Source of the DNA: Thiomicrospira aerophila AL3 | Lineage (GTDB): Bacteria > Pseudomonadota > Gammaproteobacteria > Thiomicrospirales > Thiomicrospiraceae | Direction of reading: 5' to 3' | Assembly (NCBI RefSeq): GCF_000227665.2 | Contig: NZ_CP007030.1 | Span: forward strand, 2,046,001 to 2,110,000 | Length of the DNA stretch: 64,000 bases | Part shown: piece after piece, positions 51,836-54,272 of the stretch | How the letters are laid out: each line of letters opens with the position of its first letter | Position numbering within the stretch: position 1 is the first letter of the stretch | Notes under the pieces: model-generated | Told to the model about the DNA's origin: nothing | What the model saw: the letters and a program-made list of their open reading frames with translations, nothing else | Database searches by the model: none | Program-made: the position numbers and the translations under genes

Positions 51836-52300
51836 TCAATCTTCACTTAATAAACGTTTACGATCCAAAATTGCCTTTTTTAATAACGGGACAATTTTAT
51901 GTTCCATTTGATTAAGCGCTTTTTTAACCGTTATTTTTTCATTAAAGCCTAATTCTTCTTCCAACTCATGTCGTTTAACAAGGGGCAGATTTTTTAAGAT
52001 TTTTTGTTTTACCTGGCCGGTTGAATCAATACGACATAAGATAATTTTTTGCATGGTCGAGAGTGATGCCAACATCATCTGAATCGTCGCATCTTCCATC
52101 TCAACAATTTTTAACGCAATTTTTCGATACGCTGCTAAACTCCGCTCTAACGCGGCCTCATCTTCAGGCGTCAGTTGCTTAATGCGATAGTCCATCAAAG
52201 AGACTAACTCATTAGCCGCATCGTTAGGCAGCGTAATAATTACATGACCTAGCTCAATTAAGAGCACATTATCATCTTTGCGTTTAACCTTAATTTCCAA
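51836..52300 (-). CDS. FliG-C-like solo protein 2 of the stator operon
   Basis: 154 aa. N-terminal strands VKRKDDNVLLIELGHVIITLPND match those of the adjacent 154-aa protein, and a helical C-terminal part (LASLSTMQKIILCRIDSTGQVKQKILKNLPLVKRHELEEELG...KKALNQMEHKIVPLLKKAIL) follows the FliG C-terminal pattern (KEKIxxNMxxRxxxxLxxxL). It lacks the N-terminal and middle domains of true FliG (about 330 aa). Weaker match than its neighbour, so the assignment leans on paralogy. It is the last gene of prlC-motA-motB-solo1-solo2, 18 bases after solo1. Confidence 0.6.
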   Translation of the reverse strand: MEIKVKRKDDNVLLIELGHVIITLPNDAANELVSLMDYRIKQLTPEDEAALERSLAAYRKIALKIVEMEDATIQMMLASLSTMQKIILCRIDSTGQVKQKILKNLPLVKRHELEEELGFNEKITVKKALNQMEHKIVPLLKKAILDRKRLLSED

Positions 52301-52318
52301 GGCTAGCTATCCTTATAG

Positions 52319-52783
52319 TTATAGGTAAGCAGATTTTTCATAGAAAAATTCAATTTCACCCTCATCTTCCAACTCATAAATTCGTTTTATAAATCGAAAA
52401 ATTGCTTCTTTTTGTGCATTTTCATCTGGTAGCCGAATATTCGCCATATCTTCACGCATTTGGGCTTCAGCGGCATGGCCTAACTTATCCAAAGCGCGAT
52501 TTTTTAGTTTACTATCCTCTACCAGACACAACCAAATTCTAAGATCTTGACGATCAACGTGATCAAGTAACTTAGACCAATCATTTGGAGCAAGTGAATC
52601 AAGCTTGCGGGTCATTCCTAAATAACTTCGCAACAGGGCGTGAGACTTATTAGCAGATGTTTGCGCGCCGTATTTCAAACTGATCCTGAGTAAGTGGGTA
52701 GTAAACCTGTCTAAACGTACAATTGCATTACCCATTTGGATAAGCCATTCATTGTCATTAACTTTTTGCATGCCAACTTTCAT
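52319..52783 (-). CDS. FliG-C-like solo protein 1 of the stator operon
   Basis: 154 aa. The last 90 residues follow the FliG C-terminal torque domain: LLDHVDRQDLRIWLCLVEDSKLKNRALDKLGHAAEAQMREDMANIR then AQKEAIFRFIKRIYELEDEGEIEF, compared with FliG VDxxDLxxALKGAxxxLKEKI...RAAxxLxDDLxxxGP...AQxxIxxxxRRLxExGEI. The acidic pair ED in MREDMAN sits where FliG has the torque residues Asp288/Asp289. No N-terminal FliF- or FliM-binding domains are present. It starts 8 bases after motB. Family similarity is from pattern recognition, so the function is inferred. Confidence 0.7.
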   Translation of the reverse strand: MKVGMQKVNDNEWLIQMGNAIVRLDRFTTHLLRISLKYGAQTSANKSHALLRSYLGMTRKLDSLAPNDWSKLLDHVDRQDLRIWLCLVEDSKLKNRALDKLGHAAEAQMREDMANIRLPDENAQKEAIFRFIKRIYELEDEGEIEFFYEKSAYL

Positions 52784-52791
52784 AAACTACC

Positions 52792-53511
52792 CTACTGTTC
52801 TGTAATAATGACCTGCACGCGACGATCAAGATGATAGTTAGCAAAATCGCCCTCCGCAGACAAGGGCATAGAATCAGCGCGCCCTTCTACCCGCAATGAA
52901 CGGGGCTGAATAAAGCCTTGGTCTAATAAAAATTCACCCACGGATGCGGCACGTGATGCAGATAAGTCCCAGTTAGTTCGATACTGCAACCCTCTATTTA
53001 ACGGTACACGATCAGTATGACCTTGCACAAGCAGATCCAATTCTTGATAGTCTCTTAAGAATGACAAATTCATTAGCTGCCGCCTAAACTCCGGCATTAA
53101 TAACGCTGTGCCCGATGGAAACAAAGCTTCGCCTTGGAAAGTTAAGGTGACTGTTAAGGCATCAGGATCCACTTCAATTTGAACATTTTGCTCTCTCTCA
53201 AACTGCTGCTCGACGCGCTCGACTATTTCTTGAAACCGCTCATTTTCTTTCTGATCATTTTCTACAATCGAGTCAGGATTGAGTTCAATGAGCGTAGTGC
53301 CATCAAACTCTAAGATACTACTGCGTTGATCGCCGAATACGCTCTGAAGCGAAGTGGCCACCTGCTGAAATTTAAAAGGATCGATCGAGCTCATCGCATA
53401 TAGCAATGCAAAAAATGCCATAAGCAAACTCATCAGGTCTGCAAACGTAACCATCCAAGTTGGCGCGCCTTTTTTACAGGGCTTGCTAGGAGGGCATTTA
53501 TTCTCACTCAC
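52792..53511 (-). CDS. motB: Flagellar stator protein MotB/PomB
   Basis: 239 aa. A short cytoplasmic N-terminus, one membrane helix with the ion-binding Asp in VTFADLMSLLMAFFALLYAMSS (Asp about 24), then a plug/linker and a C-terminal OmpA-like peptidoglycan-binding domain (LDLLVQGHTDRVPLNRGLQYRTNWDLSASRAASVGEFLLDQG...DRRVQVIITEQ). It is a short PomB-type protein. Overlaps motA by 4 bases and is followed by the two FliG-C-like genes. Confidence 0.93.
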   Translation of the reverse strand: MSENKCPPSKPCKKGAPTWMVTFADLMSLLMAFFALLYAMSSIDPFKFQQVATSLQSVFGDQRSSILEFDGTTLIELNPDSIVENDQKENERFQEIVERVEQQFEREQNVQIEVDPDALTVTLTFQGEALFPSGTALLMPEFRRQLMNLSFLRDYQELDLLVQGHTDRVPLNRGLQYRTNWDLSASRAASVGEFLLDQGFIQPRSLRVEGRADSMPLSAEGDFANYHLDRRVQVIITEQ

Positions 53512-54272
53512 TCGGCCACCTCAGGCAGCTTATAGAAATCATGGGTTAGGTAGGGTTTCACTGTCTCACGCATAATCATTGGTGATTGCGAATTTTTGAT
53601 CGCTAATAAACACAAGGCAATTAATTCCTGCTCGTGCACCGTGACCGATTGCCAAGCGGCTATTTTTTCAGCCATTGGAATAAATGCCGCATTAGCTAAA
53701 ATCGCGCCATAGAGCGTGGTCAAAAGCGCGATGGCTAGAGCTGGGCCAATCATTTCAGGGTCATCAAGACTACCCATCATCAAAATCAATCCAATGACGG
53801 TACCAATCATCCCAAAAGCCGGCGCAGCATCTGCTAGAGCATCCATCACCGACTTACCACGCTGCGCTTGATTAATCAGGTTTTGAATTTCATCACTCAA
53901 ATAACGCTCGACTGAACGGGCATCAGGTGCGGCCAACATAAATGCCAAACCCTTATCGAAAAAATCATTGCCGGTGGTTTGACCTTCAATAGAAATAAGA
54001 CCTTCACGACGGGTTTTCTTTAATAATTCTTCAGTAGTGTCAACAAGCTGAGATAGGTTTGTTTCATCCTTTCTGCCTTTGGACGCTAACATCGCCGTTT
54101 TAAAGCCTTTTATTAAATCCTTTGGCGGAAATTTAGCGATAGTAGCGCCAATCGTACCCCCAATTACAATCAAAAAAGACTGTGGATCAATAAAAGCGCC
54201 TACGCCACCGCCTAATATCATGGCTAGCACTATAAAGATAAAAGAAAGGGTAATCCCCCCGAACATCAACAT
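53508..54272 (-). CDS. motA: Flagellar stator protein MotA/PomA
   Basis: 254 aa, four membrane helices (near residues 5-25, 29-50, 145-167 and 175-197). GGGVGAFIDPQSFLIVIGGTIGATIAKFPPKDL and APAFGMIGTVIGLILMMGSLDDPEMIGPALAIALLTTLYGAILANAAFIPMAEKIA are close to PomA. It forms the pentameric ion channel around MotB that drives flagellar rotation by contacting FliG. A sodium-type stator is suggested by the PomA-like pattern; ion choice is not proven. It lies 21 bases after prlC. Confidence 0.93.
   Translation of the reverse strand: MLMFGGITLSFIFIVLAMILGGGVGAFIDPQSFLIVIGGTIGATIAKFPPKDLIKGFKTAMLASKGRKDETNLSQLVDTTEELLKKTRREGLISIEGQTTGNDFFDKGLAFMLAAPDARSVERYLSDEIQNLINQAQRGKSVMDALADAAPAFGMIGTVIGLILMMGSLDDPEMIGPALAIALLTTLYGAILANAAFIPMAEKIAAWQSVTVHEQELIALCLLAIKNSQSPMIMRETVKPYLTHDFYKLPEVAE

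Follow-up and report, generated by a model that had tools for sequence, protein, structure and literature searches.

A tandem pair of stand-alone FliG torque-subdomain homologues in Thiomicrospirales with a probable role at the flagellar motor

What would two small proteins do that resemble the torque-generating end of FliG and are encoded directly downstream of a flagellar stator? In the current view, the FliG torque domain serves solely as one of the teeth of the rotor ring. The window analyzed here (64,000 nucleotides) comes from a complete 2.16-Mb genome whose closest named relatives are Thiomicrospira sp. ALE5 and T. microaerophila. In this window, motA and motB are followed on the minus strand by two open reading frames, ORF A and ORF B, separated by a gap of 18 bp. 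Their coordinates, strand, and 154-aa length are as an earlier note on this DNA gave them. The features are as follows.

53508–54272, minus strand: motA of a lineage-specific stator (MotA_T); PF01618, PF20560; best NCBIfam PRK08990 (PomA)
52792–53511, minus strand: motB of the same stator (MotB_T); plug/transmembrane region (PF13677, E 1.2e-19) and OmpA domain (PF00691, E 3.3e-10)
52319–52783, minus strand: ORF A, 154 aa, stand-alone FliG torque-domain protein (PF01706, E 4e-6; model pLDDT 83, Z 12.4 to FliG)
52664–52783, minus strand: ORF A N-terminal beta-beta-beta-alpha module (residues 1–40), outside FliG; from DSSP of the model, homologous to the ORF B N-terminus
52349–52609, minus strand: ORF A FliG_C torque subdomain (residues 59–145), D289-equivalent D112; from Pfam, PDB profile, fold, and alignment
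51836–52300, minus strand: ORF B, 154 aa, TTG start, paralogue of ORF A (PF01706, E 0.0013, below cut-off; family profile matches FliG; model pLDDT 76, Z 11.3)
52193–52300, minus strand: ORF B N-terminal beta-beta-beta-alpha module (residues 1–36); from the model and homology to ORF A
51875–52111, minus strand: ORF B FliG_C torque subdomain (residues 64–142), R90 equivalent to K264, E115/E116 equivalent to D288/D289

Homology to the FliG torque subdomain

ORF A exceeds the PF01706 (FliG_C) cut-off of 23.3 bits, with a score of 27.5. ORF B itself scores 19.4 bits; relatives of both proteins across the family exceed the cut-off, those of B in many genomes. Searches of PDB sequences with single A or B sequences returned nothing. 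When family profiles built from 12 A proteins and 12 B proteins were used, FliG was the top match for each (1qc7; E 2.7e-8 for A, 1.9e-4 for B) and the sole convincing one. In the reversed search, the A profile recovered full-length FliG in ~100 gammaproteobacterial genomes and the B profile in ~70 genomes across the phylum. AlphaFold models built from three-sequence alignments superpose on FliG-C at 1.8 Å over 92 residues for ORF A and 2.2 Å over 87 residues for ORF B. The next-best folds are the FliG middle domain (Z ~7) and unrelated folds (Z 4–5). The Pfam, family-profile, reverse-search, and fold scores together place the likeness beyond chance, and it is nearly certain that A and B are true homologues of the FliG torque subdomain. 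The torque-domain match proposed in the earlier note is borne out by PF01706 for A, by the family profiles for both proteins, and by the structural comparison that it had suggested.

Both models open with three strands and one helix. This N-terminal module, which the earlier note had picked out as a shared strand pattern, is indeed common to A and B (profile-profile E 2.9e-11 across residues 1–121). With VIA-align, residues 1–42 of ORF B gave weak, small matches only (TsaB and ribosomal L38e, Z 4–5).

The genome also carries an ordinary 341-aa FliG, encoded in a fliEFGHIJ operon. This true FliG matches the FliF-binding FliG_N (PF14842) with E 1.3e-30 and the FliM-binding FliG_M (PF14841) with E 2.8e-25; neither family matches A or B, which agrees with the reading that these parts are missing. 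The MFXF hinge that precedes the torque subdomain is found in 0/30 A and 0/28 B proteins. In FliG, R281 and D288/D289 are stator-facing and lie at opposite ends of the torque helix (PMC11528121). The D289-equivalent is Asp in all 30 A proteins and Asp or Glu in all 28 B proteins. The D288-equivalent is acidic in 27 of the 28 B proteins and in only about a quarter of A, so that the acidic pair described earlier holds for B and only in part for A. Conversely, the AQxxI...EGEI ending is seen in A and not in B. An Arg or Lys is kept at the K264-equivalent position in 27/28 B and is not kept in A, and the R281-equivalent is lost in every A and B examined. The full set of torque charges (K264, R281, D288, D289) is present in neither protein.

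Likeness to FliG_CC (PF01706; PDB 1qc7, 8wo5, 8ucs) therefore lies in fold, sequence family, and the D289-equivalent acid, and for B additionally in the K264-equivalent Arg/Lys and the D288-equivalent acid. A and B differ from FliG in having the new N-terminal beta-beta-beta-alpha module in place of FliG_N, FliG_M, the hinge, and R281, and in occurring as two paralogues per genome beside the true FliG. By membership the pair is not FliG, as the defining features tested are absent. It may still act like FliG-C at the stator.

Genomic placement, promoter, and distribution

A and B always occur in tandem, and the pair is present in 56 of the 63 genomes of the order (Thiomicrospirales). Outside the order's family, the A profile found no stand-alone copy among 274 gammaproteobacterial genomes. 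Across 398 genomes of the phylum, the B profile gave a single stand-alone match outside the order, on contig 155 of a metagenome-assembled genome labelled as another class (G538). On that contig the order is folB-[B A]-midA-uppP, as in Thiomicrospirales, and the housekeeping neighbours are ~51–79% identical to the Thiomicrospirales ones. The contig probably belongs to this order and reflects a binning or classification problem, and we rejected it as an occurrence elsewhere. A second apparent stand-alone match (G282) proved to be an ordinary FliG truncated by a contig end. No copy of the pair was found in the plasmids and phage families searched.

One could regard the pair as functionless, decaying fliG fragments, given that only part of FliG is represented. 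Across a deep divergence, essentially all of the 56 genomes keep both genes intact, with conserved residues, a common new N-terminal module, and a promoter. This conservation already contradicts decay, which we consider extremely improbable.

The earlier note had taken the proteins to be made with the stator. This applies to five Thiomicrospira genomes: that of the window (G000), G061, G055, G056, and G060. In these five, the pair lies downstream of MotA_T/MotB_T and folB directly adjoins midA. Each of the 19 further family genomes inspected reads dnaG-yqeY-tsaD-plsY-folB-[B A]-midA-uppP, with the pair on the strand opposite to both of its neighbours. Since folB and midA flank the pair elsewhere and adjoin each other in the relocated genomes, the folB-midA site is ancestral and placement in the stator operon is derived. 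The MotA_T/MotB_T stator was found solely in the five relocated genomes, where it is 76–90% identical; the best MotA elsewhere has ~37–41% identity to MotA_T.

A single relocation suffices to explain the stator placement, with no need for a second event or a horizontal transfer, although the trees are compatible with either. The association with the stator may go back to one event only. The housekeeping tree and the A/B tree disagree, which raised the idea that the whole stator-A-B operon was transferred horizontally between two Thiomicrospira clades. A single relocated clade is not rejected by the AU test (p 0.42), and no such transfer is claimed. A/B identity to genome G062 is 27–31% in the relocated genomes vs 46–47% in the non-relocated G057–G059, while housekeeping identity to G062 is 60–66% vs 66–67%. 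A and B diverged fast after relocation.

At the ancestral site, a sigma-54 core (TGG-N8-TTGC) is found 5' of A in 31 of 38 genomes, 41–133 bp from the start. The chance level is 2.0 expected from dinucleotide shuffles, and two were seen on the reverse strand. Among other genes at 14 of these loci, the core occurs in 4 of ~120 upstream regions. An identical core lies 73 bp before fliE in the fliEFGHIJ operon of the window's own genome. In the window, the region preceding the relocated operon gave no sigma-54 core, and sigma-28 promoters showed no excess. At its ancestral site, the pair forms a bicistron oriented independently of its neighbours, with a predicted sigma-54 promoter of the same class as that of the fliEFG operon. 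Gammaproteobacterial polar flagella are built under sigma-54 control (FlrA/FleQ-RpoN hierarchies), and sigma-54 drives non-flagellar genes too.

The complete genome G054 lacks FliG, MotB, and the pair, and it is the only non-flagellate relative. It groups with the relocated genomes in the housekeeping tree; it could have lost the pair merely along with the stator operon, and its loss of flagella is a single event. The pair is also missing from four flagellate g2 genomes and from two flagellate drafts (G017 and G041), so it is dispensable for flagella.

The earlier note had named unrelated neighbours in other genomes as an observation that would speak against its proposal, and such neighbours, folB and midA, are what the 19 genomes have. 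With most genomes holding the pair between these genes, we rejected any conclusion drawn from gene neighbourhood alone. A flagellar role nonetheless survives because of the opposed orientation, the pair's own sigma-54 core as in fliEFG, and its absence from the non-flagellate genome. The same evidence bears on the idea that a torque domain was recycled for use outside the flagellum, in a process tied to the housekeeping neighbours folB, midA, and uppP. The ancestral and majority site among housekeeping genes fits such a use. Against it stand the pair's orientation, a promoter core that its neighbours lack, its absence from the sole non-flagellate genome, and its move into a stator operon; we consider this explanation quite unlikely. 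A and B probably play a role at the flagellar motor.

Possible roles at the motor

Our preferred reading, to which we give a probability of roughly one half, is that A and B are accessory proteins of the motor under sigma-54 control and act as a non-driving rotor mimic by gripping MotA. In this model, the two paralogues, each derived from the torque subdomain of FliG with a new module added at the N-terminus, would form a hetero-oligomer through their N-terminal modules. They would remain outside the C ring, because the FliF-binding, FliM-binding, and hinge parts are absent. The torque-like domain would dock at the site where MotA grips FliG-C itself, its cytoplasmic ring; FliG-C on its own sits clasped between a pair of MotA subunits (PMC11302681). 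Of the charges known to contact MotA, the torque helix of A and B retains only some. Holding of the stator rather than uptake of torque is suggested by the absence of the R281-equivalent and, in A, also of the K264-equivalent. The stator could thereby be held or modulated by a brake, clutch, or parking factor that does not take up torque. On the stator side, MotA_T is PomA-like and, by alignment, retains the rotor-facing Arg and Glu (TRREGLISIE). The rotor mimic acting on the stator, as the earlier note had proposed, is compatible with this evidence; its premise that the proteins are made with the stator applies to five genomes only.

The same torque domain could instead work on the rotor side. 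A and B would then sit on the C ring, via FliM, FliG, or each other, adding or replacing torque teeth and changing rotor diameter, torque, or switching. The domain is the rotor's own, its D289-equivalent acid is conserved throughout A and B, and the promoter class is that of fliEFG. Without FliG_N, FliG_M, and the MFXF hinge, however, the proteins have no known way into the ring, and relocation went to a stator operon and not to the fliG operon. We judge a place on the rotor unlikely.

Three genomes of genus g5 encode a fusion of an A-like FliG_C domain with a protein whose sequence suggests two membrane helices (the two-TM protein). The fusion genes lie directly after apaH (L076:5525-6403 in G018; L170:4155-5045 in G020; G021:C126:2781-3635), and these genomes still have separate A and B. 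Fused or unfused, the two-TM protein is present in 60 of the 63 genomes of the order, being missing from G054 and the drafts G019 and G037, and it was not found outside the order in our genome sample. In the window's own genome, the unfused form follows ksgA-apaH (L173:1426-1983, C1 ~478 kb) and has no Pfam family. Such fusions often mark interacting partners. The fusion partner may be a membrane anchor of A and B, and we treat it as a lead only.

This lead also allows a reading in which A, B, and the apaH-linked two-TM protein bring stators or other motor components together at the membrane close to the pole, with the torque-like domain as a docking module. It overlaps with the stator-side, rotor-side, and non-flagellar readings. 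The fusion itself and the order-specific distribution of the two-TM protein in our sample, including its absence from non-flagellate G054, are in its favour. Yet the fusion is limited to one genus in which separate A and B persist, the two-TM protein also occurs in g2 genomes, where A/B are missing, and it is encoded with apaH and not with flagellar genes. Recruitment of this kind seems unlikely.

Within the preferred reading of a non-driving rotor mimic on MotA, the two-TM protein would be the putative anchor. A fuller version, which we offer tentatively and regard as doubtful, is that the sigma-54-controlled pair fills the clefts in which the MotA pentamer binds FliG, is tethered by the order-specific membrane protein, and holds, selects, or pre-loads stators. 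In some Thiomicrospira it would now belong to one additional stator as its dedicated set of subunits.

Relation to known systems and other stator-like loci

YcgR, MotI, and EpsE are flagellar brakes or clutches of the PilZ or glycosyltransferase-like type. The role proposed for A and B would resemble theirs, as small soluble binders of MotA and/or FliG that alter motor output. They differ in their building blocks: the known proteins use PilZ (c-di-GMP-binding) or glycosyltransferase-like domains, whereas A and B have neither of these, with no PilZ match in Pfam, and use the rotor's own torque domain. Leptospira likewise has extra FliG_C-bearing genes beside fliG, its FliG paralogues and "FliG C-terminal domain-containing" proteins. 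MY479_RS01260 bears this product name in an expression table (PMC13066512) and is compared by that name only. In the literature found, none of the Leptospira genes is reported as a tandem pair or with stators. A search of mostly non-subscription literature on stand-alone FliG-C, FliG-like paralogues, and Thiomicrospira stators gave no description of such a system. The pair, which is restricted to a single order of sulfur bacteria, may represent a motor accessory not described before.

A free torque-domain pair with a flagellar-type promoter and fast change in a stator operon suggests that a stator-rotor contact has turned regulatory. If true, the pair would offer a soluble, naturally occurring tool for probing the interface between MotA and FliG, and a handle on how multi-stator bacteria choose among stators.

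The stator of the window (52792–54272) has the MotA channel and N-terminal domains, the rotor-facing Arg/Glu of MotA, and the MotB plug and OmpA domain. We considered and rejected a Zorya defence motor: its MotA is of normal length, PomA-like, and has no ZorA match, and the likeness of its MotB to ZorB is that of any MotB. Two further stator-like loci were seen. In the window's own genome (L178:4863-7123, C1 ~617 kb), one MotA precedes two MotB-like genes that differ from each other (245 and 230 aa). On contig 30 of G055 (L163:5728-6489), a second MotA_T copy stands without MotB or the A/B pair and is followed by a long chemoreceptor-like gene.
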